Below are positions 5,640-43,266 of a stretch of DNA of 64,000 bases, piece after piece. The translations under genes were made by a program, and so were the position numbers. Source of the stretch: Acidipropionibacterium thoenii DSM 20276 (GTDB lineage: Bacteria > Actinomycetota > Actinomycetes > Propionibacteriales > Propionibacteriaceae). The first letter of the stretch is position 1, and every line of letters begins with the position of its first letter. Below the pieces are notes generated by a model. The model saw nothing but the letters and a program-made list of their open reading frames with translations, ran no database searches and was not told the DNA's origin. The stretch is taken from NCBI RefSeq assembly GCF_000423445.1, contig NZ_AUHZ01000005.1:62001-126000 (forward strand). Reading direction: 5' to 3'.

Positions 5640-6125
5640 TCACTGCTCGGTGTGCGGCCGGACCGGCCGGGTTGAGCCGACCGACTGCGCCGACTGCCTC
5701 GACCGGGATCGGTCGAGCTTGCGCAAGGACTGCGACCAGGCCGAGGCCAGATCGGCCGCCAGGGCATCCGGATGGGAGGACGCCGCAGGCAGCGCCCGCA
5801 CCACCAGCAGGGTGCCCTGCGGAGTGGTGGCAAGCAGCTCGCGGCTCATATGACGAAGACGTCGTTTCACCCGATTACGGGTGACGGCGTTCCCGACTGC
5901 CTTGGACACGATGAAACCCACGCGAGGAGGGTCGTCATGGCCGGCCAAGGCATTCGCGAATACCGCCGAGTTGTCCACAGCGGCTGTGGACAACTCGGCC
6001 TGAACGGCCGCACCAGCGGTCCTGGAGGCATGTACCACCACGGACTGTCGCCCTGCCCGGGCACCACGATGCACCACGGCACGGAACTCACCGGGCCGAT
6101 GCACGCGGGAACGGGCGGGCAGCAC
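5640..6125 (-). CDS. rnpA: Ribonuclease P protein component RnpA
   Basis: Protein subunit of RNase P, which helps the catalytic RNA remove 5' leaders from pre-tRNAs. The conserved RNR segment is clear: GFIVSKAVGNAVTRNRVKRRLRH. The start is GTG at 6125 (LPARSRVHRPGEFRAVV), matching family N-termini. The protein is 161 residues, against about 115-125 for most homologues. Extra sequence lies between the first strand and the RNR region, about residues 38-66, and a basic tail follows. Part of the insert is encoded by a 35-bp palindrome built from two DnaA boxes (5965-5999). It sits between rpmH and yidD on the same strand. Confidence 0.93.
   Translation of the reverse strand: MLPARSRVHRPGEFRAVVHRGARAGRQSVVVHASRTAGAAVQAELSTAAVDNSAVFANALAGHDDPPRVGFIVSKAVGNAVTRNRVKRRLRHMSRELLATTPQGTLLVVRALPAASSHPDALAADLASAWSQSLRKLDRSRSRQSAQSVGSTRPVRPHTEQ
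5965..5999. promoter_or_regulatory. Palindromic pair of perfect DnaA boxes inside rnpA
   Basis: GCCGAGTTGTCCACAG at 5965-5980 and its exact reverse complement at 5984-5999 are separated by CGG. Each arm carries a perfect TTGTCCACA DnaA box (5971-5979 and, inverted, 5985-5993). It lies about 630 bp upstream of the dnaA start and codes for a non-conserved insertion in RnpA. A role in DnaA titration or as an upstream part of the origin is inferred. Confidence 0.75.
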
Positions 6126-6627: not shown

Positions 6628-8193
6628 ATGACGGAGGCGAGAGCCAATGACGATGCGTCCCGGCCGGGGGCTGATGGTCGGCCGATGTCCCGCAACGACC
6701 CCGGCGTCTCTCCCGCCACTCACCCCGACGCGATCCTGCCCCCACCGATGAGCTCCAAGGAGCCCGGAGATCCCACCGACGACCTCATCTCGGCCTGGTC
6801 CTCCGTCGTGCGCAAGGTCTCCCCGGCCAACAAGGCCTGGCTGGCCAACAGCCGTCCGGTGACGATGCACACCTCAACTGCGATGATCGCCGTCCACAAC
6901 GAGTTCACCCGGGACCGCATCGAGACGAAGATGCGCAGCGAGCTGGAGGAACTGCTGTCGGACTACTTCCGTCGGCCCATCCATCTGGCGATCACGATCG
7001 ATCCTGACATCGAGCTGGCGCTCGGCGTCCCCGAGACGGACCAGGACGACGAGGAGGAGGATCTGCCGCCCTCCCAGTTCGTTCCCAAGGTCAATCCCGG
7101 AGATCCGGACGCCCTCTCGGACCGGCTGCTGAGCACCGAGGAACGCCAGGCCGGTGAGGCCAATGGTCTGATGCGTCTGAATCCGAAGTACACCTTCGAC
7201 ACCTTCGTCATCGGCGCCTCCAACCGCTTCGCCCATGCCGCGGCGGTCGCCGTCGCCGAATCTCCCGGCAAGTCCTACAACCCGCTGCTGATCTACGGCG
7301 GTTCCGGGTTGGGGAAGACCCACCTGCTCCATGCCATCGGCCACTACGTCGTCAACTACTACGACAACGTCAAGGTGAGATACGTCTCCACCGAGGAGCT
7401 CACCAACGACTTCATCAATGCCATCGGCACCAACACCGCCAACGACTTCCGCCGTGCCTACCGCGATGTCGACGTCCTGCTGGTCGACGACATCCAGTTC
7501 CTGGAGAACAAGATCCAGACCCAGGAGGAGTTCTTCCACACCTTCAACACCCTGCACAACGCCCAGAAGCAGATCGTGATGACCTCCGACCGGCCCCCCA
7601 AGCTCCTGGAGGCCCTCGAGCCCCGGCTGCGCAGCCGCTTCGAATGGGGCCTGCTCACCGACATCCAACCCCCCGATCTGGAGACGCGGATCGCCATTCT
7701 GCGTCGAAAGGTCGCCTCCGAGCGACTGTCGGTCAGCGCCGAGGTGCTCGAGTTCATCGCCAGTCGGATACAGACCAATATCCGTGAGCTGGAGGGCGCT
7801 CTGATCCGGGTGACGGCCTTCGCCAGCCTCAATCGCCAGTTGGTCGACATGTCTCTGGCCGAGGTGGTCCTCAAGGACCTCATCCCGGACGGCCAGGAGT
7901 CCCCCGTGACGGTGGACCGCATCATCACCGAGACCGCCGCCTACTTCGGGATCAACCGCGATGATCTGCTGGGCACCTCCCGGACCCAGACGGTGGTCAC
8001 CGCCCGCCAGATCGCGATGTACCTGTGCCGTGAGCTGACCGACCTGTCGCTGCCCAAGATCGGTGCCGAGTTCGGCGGCAAGGACCACACCACCGTGATG
8101 CACGCCGACCGCAAGATCCGATCCCTGATGGGGGAGCGACGCCAGATCTTCAACCAGGTCTCCGAGCTCACCAACCGCATCAAGCAGAATTAG
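6628..8193 (+). CDS. dnaA: Chromosomal replication initiator DnaA
   Basis: DnaA binds DnaA boxes at oriC, forms an ATP-dependent filament and opens the duplex. The 521-residue protein shows domain I at about residues 45-125, a short acidic linker, the AAA+ domain with Walker A GGSGLGKTHLLHAIG and Walker B LLVDDIQFL, and the C-terminal helix-turn-helix with the signature FGGKDHTTVMHADRKI. I chose ATG 6628 (MTEARAND), directly after GGGGAG; an ATG 17 codons upstream lies within the DnaA boxes and has no ribosome-binding site. It is followed by oriC. Unusually, dnaN is not the next gene. Confidence 0.98.
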   Translation: MTEARANDDASRPGADGRPMSRNDPGVSPATHPDAILPPPMSSKEPGDPTDDLISAWSSVVRKVSPANKAWLANSRPVTMHTSTAMIAVHNEFTRDRIETKMRSELEELLSDYFRRPIHLAITIDPDIELALGVPETDQDDEEEDLPPSQFVPKVNPGDPDALSDRLLSTEERQAGEANGLMRLNPKYTFDTFVIGASNRFAHAAAVAVAESPGKSYNPLLIYGGSGLGKTHLLHAIGHYVVNYYDNVKVRYVSTEELTNDFINAIGTNTANDFRRAYRDVDVLLVDDIQFLENKIQTQEEFFHTFNTLHNAQKQIVMTSDRPPKLLEALEPRLRSRFEWGLLTDIQPPDLETRIAILRRKVASERLSVSAEVLEFIASRIQTNIRELEGALIRVTAFASLNRQLVDMSLAEVVLKDLIPDGQESPVTVDRIITETAAYFGINRDDLLGTSRTQTVVTARQIAMYLCRELTDLSLPKIGAEFGGKDHTTVMHADRKIRSLMGERRQIFNQVSELTNRIKQN

Positions 8194-40257: not shown

Positions 40258-41496
40258 TCACGTCGCGCTGGGGCTGGAACCACCGTTGTCCGGCGGAGGG
40301 ACCGGCGTCTGAGTCTGCCCGGGCCGATCGGCGTGGCCACCCCACGGATCCTGGTCGGGACCTGCGCTCCACGGGTTCTGCTCCGGTGGCCCGGGTCGGT
40401 ACGGGGTGGGCTGCTGTTGAGGTGGATAGGACTGCTGCCCGTACGGCGGCTGGGCGGGGCCCGGCTGCTGACTGTGGGCTGCCTGCGGGTTCGGGCCGGG
40501 CTGTCGAGCGGGGTAGGGCTGAACTCCGCCAGGCTGCTGGGGCTGCGGAGCCGGCCCCTGCTGGCCCGGATACCCCTGCTGGCCTGGGTAGTTCTGCTGA
40601 GCCGGGTAGCCCTGGGGCCCTCCGGCCGACGCCGGCCGGGCACCCCCACGCCGAGTGGTCAGGTACTGCCAGAGAGCCCCGGCAAGGGTGATCACCACGG
40701 TGACCATGAACAGCCACACGCCGATCCCCATCCGCGACGATGTCTGGAGTAACTGGCTCGGGGTCCTGTACTGGTTGGAGATCTGCGTGGCCTGCACCAG
40801 CCCGAGGATCATCAGGACCGTCAGCACGCCGGCCCCGATGAGACTGGCGAGGTCCCACCAGCGGGGCAGTTCCTTGTCCAGGGCCAGCGCGATCGCCCCG
40901 AGGATCACCAGACCGATGAGCACGAGCAGCGTGAGGACCAGACGGGTGTTCCAGGCCCCGGCGCTCACCGGGCCTGCCGACTCCCTGACCGAGGTCGCCC
41001 AGTTGAGTCCGTGGCCGGCGTAGCTCACTGATTGCGTACCCGTCCCCTGGAGCGTGTACACCGTCCACGGCCCGAGCAACGCGAAGAAGCTCAGCACCGT
41101 CCCGGCGAGCAGTACCAGGCGCGGGTAGCGCTGCATCCATGACCGGGGGGAGAGGCCGTCGGGTGGTGGGCTCTGCAGGGGACCCTGGGGGTTGTGGCCC
41201 TGGGGGTTCGCGGACTGCGGGTACTGCCCCAATGGGTTCTGGGACTGCTGGACCGGTTGAGGTTGCTGTGTCGGCTGCGGCTGCCAGGACTGTTGGGATT
41301 GCTGGGAGCCGCCCGGGGAGTAGGGCCGCTGATCCGGACCGCGCTGCCATCCTCCCTGCGGTGAACCTGGCTGAGGTTGCGGCTGGCCCGGGCCGGGGGT
41401 CCAGGGCGGGGGCACTGGTGATCCAGAAGGCGGCATTCCAGCGGAACCGTAGGAGTTGTCCTGAGGTCGTCCATCATCAGGCGGTTGGGCTGACAT
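40258..41496 (-). CDS. Membrane protein with Pro/Gln-rich tails, paralogue of the next gene
   Basis: A 412-residue protein. Residues 1-115 are Pro/Gln/Gly-rich (repeated SQQSQQSWQPQPTQQPQP-like runs), about 120-275 hold four transmembrane segments homologous to the 191-residue neighbour, and the rest is again Pro/Gln/Gly/Tyr-rich with NYPGQQGYPGQQG repeats. Such tails are typical of low-complexity cytoplasmic extensions on actinobacterial membrane proteins. The core likely carries the shared function, unknown to me. The gene is preceded by a 72-bp perfect palindrome that begins 69 bp upstream of its start. Confidence 0.75.
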   Translation of the reverse strand: MSAQPPDDGRPQDNSYGSAGMPPSGSPVPPPWTPGPGQPQPQPGSPQGGWQRGPDQRPYSPGGSQQSQQSWQPQPTQQPQPVQQSQNPLGQYPQSANPQGHNPQGPLQSPPPDGLSPRSWMQRYPRLVLLAGTVLSFFALLGPWTVYTLQGTGTQSVSYAGHGLNWATSVRESAGPVSAGAWNTRLVLTLLVLIGLVILGAIALALDKELPRWWDLASLIGAGVLTVLMILGLVQATQISNQYRTPSQLLQTSSRMGIGVWLFMVTVVITLAGALWQYLTTRRGGARPASAGGPQGYPAQQNYPGQQGYPGQQGPAPQPQQPGGVQPYPARQPGPNPQAAHSQQPGPAQPPYGQQSYPPQQQPTPYRPGPPEQNPWSAGPDQDPWGGHADRPGQTQTPVPPPDNGGSSPSAT

Positions 41497-41564: not shown

Positions 41565-41636
41565 CCACGTTCGTCCTCAGATCTGGCGTTCGTCCTGGAA
41601 TTCCAGGACGAACGCCAGATCTGAGGACGAACGTGG
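41565..41636. repeat. 72-bp perfect loop-less palindrome
   Basis: Positions 41565-41600 and 41601-41636 are exact reverse complements with no spacer (centre GGAA/TTCC). Each arm contains two TTCGTCCT motifs and an AGATCT. It lies 69 bp upstream of a membrane-protein gene and about 200 bp downstream of the aminotransferase gene. Perfect palindromes of this size are usually unstable, so retention suggests a role or recent origin. Confidence 0.9.
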
Positions 41637-41655
41637 CCGGGGTGGAGTGGTCGGC

Positions 41656-41824
41656 GACGTCTGTCCAGGGTCTGTGCGGTCGGGACGTCTGCCCCGGCGC
41701 CCACCAGTCCGGGGGACGCCTGTCCCGGGGGTTCACCTGTCCGGGGGACGCCCGCCCAGGGTCCACCTGTCCAGGGTCTGTCTGCCTAGGGGACGTCCGT
41801 CCCCGGTGTCCACCTGTCCGGGGC
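41656..41824. repeat. Degenerate minisatellite, five units
   Basis: Five imperfect units begin with GAC at 41656, 41684, 41715, 41747 and 41792 and are 28, 31, 32, 45 and about 33 bp long. The pattern is GACGYCYGYCC then CACCTGTCCGGGG. It fills the space between the palindrome and the end of the aminotransferase gene. Spacing and identity are too irregular for a CRISPR array. Confidence 0.65.
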
Positions 41825-41833
41825 CGGAGGGCG

Positions 41834-43051
41834 TCAGCCCAGAAGCGCCGCAGGCTGCTTCGGCCGACCTGCCCGGTCTCGCGAGGACTGCTCCAGCAGT
41901 GCCGCGACGAAGACGCCGATTCTCCTGACGCCCTCCACGATCGCCTCCTCGGAGGTGGCGTAGGACAGCCGGATGTGGCCCTCGCCCAGGGCGCCGAAGT
42001 CGATCCCGGGGGCCACCGCGACCTTCTGCTCGGCCAGCAGCCGCATCGCGAAGTCGCGAGAGGACAGGCCGGTCGCCTCGATGTTGACGAAGACGTAGAA
42101 GGCGCCTCCCGGCGTCGGGCAGTGCAGACCCTCGATCGCATTGACGGCGTCGACGATGAGGTCGCGACGCCGCTCGTAACTGCGGCGCATCGTCTCGACC
42201 ACCGACTGATCGCCGGCCAGCGCGCAGGCAGCGGCCGTCTGGGCAGGGGAGTTGACGCAGCTCAGCAGGCACTCCTGCATCGCAGGCATGTAGCCGATGA
42301 TCTCCTGGGGACCGCAGATGAAGCCGACCCGCCAGCCAGTCATGGCATAGGCCTTGGAGACCGAGTCGACACAGAAGGTGCGCTCCTTCATTCCCGGGAT
42401 CCGGGCGATGTTGAAGAACTCCTGGTCGCCGTAGAGCAGGTGTTTGTAGACCTCGTCGAAGAGCACGTAGAGGTCATTCTCAATGGCCACCCGGGCGATC
42501 ATCTCGAGGTTCTCGCGGGAGGCCGTGGTGCCGGTCGGATTGGCCGGGGAGTTGATCATGATCACCTTGGTGCGTTCGGTGATCGCCTGCCTCAGGGAGT
42601 CCTCCTCGAAGCAGAAGCCGGTCTCCTCGCGGGTCGGGACGGAGACCGGGGTGCACTGGTTGAGAACGACGGCGCCCTGGTAGTTGGCGTAGCACGGGTC
42701 GGTGACCAGCACCTCGTCGCCGGGGTTGGTGAGAGTGGCCAGGGTGAGATAGACGCCTTCCATGGCGCCGTTGGTGACCATGATCTCGGTGCTCGGGTCG
42801 TAGTCGATCTGGTCGTAGCGCCGGAACTCGGCGTCGACGGCCTCGCGCAGCGGCCTGACCCCGGAGTTGTCGGTGTAGCCGATACGGCCGTCCAGAGCCT
42901 TCCTGGCGGCTGCGATGACGGCGGGAGGGGTGGCGAAGTCGGGCTCACCGACCGCGAAGGAGATGACGTCGTCCATCCCGATGATCTGGTTGAAGATGAC
43001 CCGGATGAGGGACAGAGGGGTGTTGGCGGCGGTGGTGCTGATCGGCTTCAT
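41834..43051 (-). CDS. PLP-dependent aminotransferase, class I/II
   Basis: A 405-residue fold-type I aminotransferase of the aspartate/aromatic type. PLP contacts are visible as NSPANPTGT (Asn), LFDEVYKHLLY (Asp and Tyr) and the Schiff-base lysine in VDSVSKAYAMTGWRVG; the substrate arginine is in HIRLSYATS. The substrate is uncertain. The start ATG 43051 gives a family-like N-terminus (MKPISTTAANTPLSLIRVIF). It lies between two large palindromes. The upstream neighbour is an aldolase on the same strand, separated by a strong hairpin, so it is probably an independent unit. Confidence 0.9.
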   Translation of the reverse strand: MKPISTTAANTPLSLIRVIFNQIIGMDDVISFAVGEPDFATPPAVIAAARKALDGRIGYTDNSGVRPLREAVDAEFRRYDQIDYDPSTEIMVTNGAMEGVYLTLATLTNPGDEVLVTDPCYANYQGAVVLNQCTPVSVPTREETGFCFEEDSLRQAITERTKVIMINSPANPTGTTASRENLEMIARVAIENDLYVLFDEVYKHLLYGDQEFFNIARIPGMKERTFCVDSVSKAYAMTGWRVGFICGPQEIIGYMPAMQECLLSCVNSPAQTAAACALAGDQSVVETMRRSYERRRDLIVDAVNAIEGLHCPTPGGAFYVFVNIEATGLSSRDFAMRLLAEQKVAVAPGIDFGALGEGHIRLSYATSEEAIVEGVRRIGVFVAALLEQSSRDRAGRPKQPAALLG

Positions 43052-43208
43052 TGTCTGTGGTGCCTTTCCTGCGTCCCCTGACTGTGGCCCTCCCACAGCG
43101 GTCACGGAGAAGTGTCGCTGATCGTCGTTACGCCCGTATGACACCGTGATGCCGGCTTGCAGTCTGGTTTCCGCTGGGCTCCATTCGCCTCGCCGGCGTG
43201 GTGAGCGC

Positions 43209-43266
43209 GAGCATGTGCGGTCGGGGGTTCTCGGCACGTGCCGAGAACCCCCGACCGCAGATGCTC
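43209..43266 (-). terminator. Large loop-less palindrome after the aldolase gene
   Basis: The inner 44 bp (43216-43259) are a perfect palindrome centred on GGCAC/GTGCC. One mismatch allows extension to 29-bp arms. It begins 13 bp after the aldolase stop and is best read as its terminator, although no T-run follows and a loop-less stem is unusual. Confidence 0.7.

Follow-up and report, generated by a model that had tools for sequence, protein, structure and literature searches.

A dispersed four-site palindrome of Acidipropionibacterium thoenii and its candidate role at the ends of converging transcripts

What is a perfect 72-bp palindrome doing in a bacterial chromosome, and how is it kept there? 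Palindromes as long as this one and without a loop usually count as unstable in bacterial genomes. The one considered here lies at 41565-41636 of the window, i.e., the whole stretch of 64,000 nucleotides analysed (C3:62001-126000), in the 2.94-Mb A. thoenii genome G000, an assembly of 45 contigs. It reads ccacgttcgtcctcagatctggcgttcgtcctggaa^ttccaggacgaacgccagatctgaggacgaacgtgg, with ^ marking the centre. In agreement with the initial annotation, all 36 pairs counted outward from the centre match without any loop or spacer; the next four pairs are mismatched. On base composition alone, about 1e-15 repeats with arms of 36 bp are expected by chance in 64 kb. The palindrome ranks as the strongest of ten inverted repeats in the window, and the block-shuffled window yielded none. 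Transcripts of either strand are predicted to form a 34-bp stem with a folding energy of -72.9 kcal/mol (z -18.6). The repetition of TTCGTCCT inside each arm, likewise pointed out at the outset, is real: one 9-bp site starts at 41568 and another at 41587. The idea read from it, that the arms grew by duplication, finds no support: although the sites recur at a constant 19-bp step, the 10-bp spacers bear no relation to each other.

Table 1 The palindrome, its parts and its neighbours in window coordinates
Feature	Position	Strand	Remark
Left arm, 36 bp	41565..41600	+	36/36 pairs with right arm
Right arm, 36 bp	41601..41636	+	36/36 pairs with left arm
Site 1, CGTTCGTCC	41568..41576	+	conserved among family copies
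Site 2, CGTTCGTCC	41587..41595	+	19 bp after site 1
Site 3, GGACGAACG on + strand	41606..41614	-	
Site 4, GGACGAACG on + strand	41625..41633	-	
Variable 10-bp spacer, here TCAGATCTGG	41577..41586	+	varies among copies in step with 41615-41624
Partner of variable spacer	41615..41624	+	varies in step with 41577-41586
G-rich outer flank (N4, then GGGGTGG-like)	41637..41660	+	skew common to family, left flank C-richer
ORF, membrane protein judged by eye	40258..41496	-	start 68 nt from palindrome
Class I/II aminotransferase (PF00155)	41834..43114	-	ends 197 nt from palindrome; start codon approximate
Degenerate minisatellite	41682..41776	+	period ~32, 3.1 copies, 79% matches

Both flanking genes are encoded on the minus strand, with the palindrome past the end of the aminotransferase gene and before the start of the other reading frame (Table 1). 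The position upstream of a membrane-protein gene that had been ascribed to it holds for this copy as far as the reading frame is concerned, the membrane nature being a judgement by eye, and is not typical of the family, in which gene starts account for 13 of 50 flanking sides. The adjoining minisatellite is present but degenerate. The palindrome is about 34 kb from dnaA. The window spans the dnaA region, a dnaA domain (PF00308) being found at 7177-7662.

A palindrome family with four sites at a fixed step

A search of the genome for copies, proposed when the palindrome was first noticed, found 19 distinct places; all match on both strands, which makes them palindromic as well. Aligning them on the central point shows 18 full-length copies and a single one, C3:136846, that has lost most of one arm. 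Two more palindromes with the same layout and different letters emerged from a background sample comprising 20 stretches of 20 kb and the window. The layout consists of four 9-bp sites, CGTTNNTCC / GGANNAACG, which are 10 bp apart (19-bp step), the last two being inverted. The pattern CGTTNNTCC-(8 to 12)-GGANNAACG, where NN is CG or GA, was then searched in five genus genomes. It occurs at 25 places in G000 (19 CG and 6 GA, the latter forming a sister family), at five in G004 (GA), at two in G001 and at one in G002 (CG, with a letter altered in one site), and at none in G003. The central spacing is exactly 10 in all 33 places from the four genomes, where 8 to 12 was permitted, and a reversed-pattern control had no match in the same five genomes.

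The direct pair CGTTNNTCC-10-CGTTNNTCC was looked for across the order, in 293 genomes, eight of which have matches. Four of these are genus members, with 47, 11, 3 and 1 matches; outside the genus, there are two matches in G060 and one in each of three further genomes, while the control gave two in total. The four-site layout thus appears essentially confined to the genus (four of five genomes). G060, which belongs to another genus of the same family, carries two decayed relatives on the minus strand near position 1500 of L155 and L159. They have a third site sequence, CGTTGCTCC, with the same 10-bp spacing; the layout is partly kept, the second halves are decayed, and the right halves are partly common to both.

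Farther afield, the core pattern had no match in 84,980 named species genomes or in viral contigs, nor did the palindrome match plasmids and phages by blastn; in all these collections, entries close to the own genome may be missing. Rfam returned no model above its gathering score. The only hits were microRNA-precursor models far below it, which we regard as chance, and membership of a known RNA family was rejected. Outside palindromes, CGTTCGTCCT has single occurrences only. The site AGGACGAACG is also present at two contig ends of G000 (C14:30 and C32:118), presumably in the 5' region of 16S rRNA; as single 10-mers outside palindromes occur in about the number expected by chance, a 16S rRNA origin of the motif was dismissed and the match treated as a probable coincidence.

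Copies hardly differ in their 9-bp sites or at the centre; it is the 10-bp spacer that varies. Nine of the 18 full copies pair fully (36/36), and 13 do so over the inner 34 pairs. Two-sided changes affect 11 of 40 pairs, a figure reached by 2 of 500 shuffles, and paired-change cells number 31 versus 20.5 ± 3.8 in shuffles, which 0 of 500 reached; note that kinship of the sequences inflates both comparisons. Two copies are chimeric. In C8:38971, one arm has the spacer of C1:263579 and the other that of the window copy, while the arms of C9:47054 have the spacers of C8:93086 and C4:26162. Because the neighbourhoods of both are collinear with other species, gene conversion, an exchange in which the flanks do not move, is likelier than inversion. 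In the sister-type orthologues L180 (G000) and L185 (G004), the 66-bp four-site stretch differs by one matched pair only, and three more differences lie just beyond one of its ends. The chimeras and this single matched double change suggest that the arms are homogenised as DNA. Template switching during replication makes and repairs such stems, according to PMC8794818. Template switching across the hairpin together with gene conversion between copies would keep the arms identical at the DNA level. With 25 places of one layout persisting and their arms changing in step, the family offers a natural record of palindrome upkeep.

Placement between convergent genes and absence from most sister junctions

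According to a simple, crude codon-usage gene caller, all 25 places are extragenic: 15 are convergent, seven codirectional and three divergent. Among sampled junctions of at least 60 bp, convergent ones number 16 of 212 (Fisher p = 2.4e-9 against 15 of 25 palindromes), and they make up about 5% of the intergenic sequence in the sample (3312 of 62624 bp) yet hold 60% of the copies. In the 15 convergent cases, the palindrome lies near the middle of its junction (P = 0.0017). We take the three divergent cases to be real because all six flanking genes have Pfam matches; four weaker gene calls tested alongside had none. The palindrome is the sole strong hairpin in 24 of its 25 junctions, and four of ten other, non-family convergent junctions of the sample have a strong hairpin. 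One convergent junction with a sister-type palindrome also has, beside it, a long, imperfect, loop-less palindrome that is not of the family (L123:4422-4499). The flanking genes (ten proteins) are ordinary and mutually unrelated, e.g., arginyl- and class II tRNA synthetases, ROK family, HAD hydrolase, patatin, GDPD, S9 peptidase and transporters. Relatives of one copy's neighbour gene come from across the bacteria, none from the genus among those returned.

The single-contig genus genome G001, with dnaA at its start, served as chromosome map; 22 of the 25 copies could be placed on it and three could not. All 22 lie at most 1.24 Mb from dnaA, i.e., within 72% of the distance to the antipode (KS p = 0.0013; 0.009 when neighbours are merged and one copy is placed via its G002 neighbour). 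The copy-free arc on this map measures 1.22 Mb (P = 0.002).

Sister genomes allowed 69 comparisons, 45 of them two-sided and 24 one-sided, the latter not being judged. The family palindrome is found in only two of the 45 two-sided orthologous junctions (L180/L185 and L181/L206), and a strong hairpin of any kind in ten of the remaining 43. In 38 of these 43 comparisons, the own junction exceeds its counterpart by more than 72 bp, with medians of 310 versus 114 bp. Since the orthologous junctions are mostly shorter and hairpin-free, most copies, plus extra flank, appear to be gains in the own lineage or losses elsewhere, and hairpins do not appear to have been generally present at these junctions beforehand. 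At junction L031, G004 and G003 have different hairpins, which by itself suggested that these junctions need a hairpin; the overall count of 10/43 does not uphold this.

In our view, the family is probably, though by no means surely, a REP-like, non-coding palindromic repeat that multiplied in the species and is kept mainly as a two-way 3' hairpin for converging transcripts. Placement and predicted fold together suggest that transcripts end at the palindrome, and copy number and patchiness suggest that the repeat spread within the species. RNA of a gene transcribed beyond its stop codon would fold into the 34-bp hairpin and, because the element is symmetrical, transcripts from both sides would encounter an equal one. 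The hairpin could then either stop RNA polymerase with the help of Rho, which we invoke because a T-run is missing, or protect a trimmed 3' end. Two early guesses, an I-shaped terminator and the footprint of a palindromic mobile element, are in part supported and become compatible halves of one picture. For the former speaks the preference for convergent junctions, the transcript ends themselves being deduced; for the latter, the dispersed repeat family, while movement, a Y1 transposase and target-site duplications were not seen. If the hairpins do end converging transcripts, the repeat would spread as a ready-made two-way terminator, and the family could supply symmetrical terminators for use in Gram-positive hosts of high GC content.

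Several findings argue against a terminator. The three divergent copies cannot end either neighbour's message, and the 43 non-family orthologous junctions mostly manage without a hairpin. The palindromes often lie 50-250 nt from the stop codon versus often 8-80 nt for ordinary gene-end hairpins. In the first 20 nt outward of the palindromes, there is an excess of G over C of 0.228 (control -0.004, sd 0.029). The C-over-G skew before the hairpin, taken over up to 60 nt, would suit Rho. It amounts to 0.171 on gene-end sides (37 flanks) and to 0.142 on gene-start sides (13). Given this similar strength, the skew belongs to the element and not to gene ends, and the idea that the C-rich flanks are Rho sites evolved at gene ends was rejected. 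To the right of some copies (e.g., L041 8083-8150 and L034 4473-4530), the flank contains several runs of at least four G, and such G-runs beside the palindromes might form G-quadruplexes.

Rival readings and known repeats

The main and serious rival, which we regard as possible rather than probable, holds that the palindrome is a selfish or neutral repeat that spreads, has no role in transcription and is simply tolerated at places free of promoters and coding sequence. Tolerance alone could produce the same placement, there being no promoter to break between convergent genes. The patchiness among species fits this (a model search found two places each in G001 and G002 and none in G003 or G004), and so do the orthologous junctions, mostly short and hairpin-free, the divergent copies and the arm-like pieces that adjoin four of the 25 palindromes (scores of 15-20, with a maximum of 13 among 120 controls). 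The convergent excess is harder to reconcile with it, considering the small share of intergenic length that such junctions provide, and the central position and the rarity of other hairpins in these junctions are more in keeping with use than with tolerance.

It is doubtful that the four 9-bp sites at their 19-bp step are instead a protein-binding array acting as a roadblock or chromosome-organising site. The sites and the 10-bp spacing are indeed the most conserved features across the sister families while spacer sequence drifts, and the mappable copies gather on the origin side. However, the varying spacers stay palindromic, which is needless for a protein that reads only the 9-mers, and a drop from 25 copies to none within one genus is unlike a core organiser. 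More speculative still is a combination of ideas: a dedicated host protein would recognise the four-site, 19-bp lattice of a transposase-less element, template switching in replication would rewrite both arms of the element jointly, and the element would provide two-way transcript ends at origin-proximal convergent junctions, the site letters of the sister lineages (CG, GA) looking as if element and reader had co-diverged.

A classical REP moved by a RAYT (IS200/IS605-type, Y1) transposase is very unlikely. Being palindromic, intergenic, located at gene ends and present in tens of copies, the family does resemble the REPs described in PMC3733652. A search with PF01797, however, gave no Y1 transposase in the own genome, for which RAYT-driven movement was excluded, and only one in the five genus genomes (in G002). 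Neither an unpaired GTAG or CGTC end tag nor a loop is seen, and the length is about twice that of a REP. An assembly fold-back, conceivable in a draft genome and raised as a concern at the outset, has practically no chance of being the explanation and is excluded on sequence grounds: the outer flanks are not inverted copies of each other, all 18 full copies have unique flanks, symmetry ends at nearly the same boundary across copies, and the single-contig genomes G001 and G002 carry related palindromes.

How does the family compare with described repeats? The REPs of the GTAG and CGTC superfamilies are portrayed in PMC3733652 as dispersed extragenic palindromes with tens of copies or more, which lie for the most part downstream of a gene or between ORFs that converge or share one direction; CGTC REPs are without a dedicated transposase. 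In extragenic and dispersed location (25/25), gene-end bias and copy number, the present family is similar, and, as judged from the Y1 search, it shares the lack of a dedicated transposase with the CGTC type. REPs differ in that they span 20-40 bp and combine a short stem and a loop with an unpaired tag at one end (PMC3733652). The palindromes studied here measure 66-72 bp and are loop-less and mostly perfect in their arms, the CG type being spacer-less; their four sites keep the 19-bp step, and their untagged, symmetric ends (CCACG...CGTGG) are followed by a variable N4. The same text mentions untagged REP-like repeats in M. tuberculosis, D. radiodurans, Bordetella and Brucella (PMC3733652); these are likewise palindromic and tagless, and by comparison of descriptions only, the four-site layout is absent from what the available part says of them. 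The MITE hallmark of a target-site duplication is missing, with no perfect one of at least 4 nt in the 24 full copies at any boundary tried. No terminal inverted repeats held in common with an autonomous IS turned up either, in an analysis that covered transposases of the Y1 type and the single CGTTCGTCCT occurrences outside palindromes. An intrinsic terminator is excluded because the stem is followed by C-rich/G-rich, A/T-poor flanks and not by a T-run.

In high-GC bacteria, I-shaped (tail-less) or Rho-assisted gene-end hairpins follow stop codons as stems without a T-run. Unique hairpins of this kind are common in the own genome, where 36 of 41 strong inverted repeats in the sample lie outside genes and are mostly gene-end hairpins without a T-run. 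The palindromes share the tail-less stem; unlike such hairpins, they form a near-identical family at many loci and are farther from stop codons. Compensatory stem changes and hairpins common to convergent genes are reported for intrinsic and bidirectional terminators in PMC5381666. Paired stem changes and a hairpin between convergent genes recur here, in contrast to the missing T-tail, the paralogous copies and the arms apparently homogenised as DNA. Putative short REPs have been counted in A. thoenii (2.9 Mb), and the available part of that report (PMC12306157) does not describe the present family. Nor was a description found in the literature consulted, including the accessible parts of PMC6060812, PMC5381666, PMC12306157, PMC3733652 and PMC8794818. 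As judged from sequence, the family is best read as REP-like in location and behaviour and as a new layout within palindromic repeats.

The window holds a second loop-less palindrome at 43209-43266, which spans 58 bp, is imperfect near its ends and is the second-best inverted repeat of the window. No second copy was found in the five genus genomes, and it was rejected as a repeat family. It lies 13 nt past a minus-strand stop codon, that of a gene which we take to be aldolase-like. Near dnaA, in a divergent junction, a 17-bp stem with TTGTCCACAGC/GCTGTGGACAA occupies 5965-5999.
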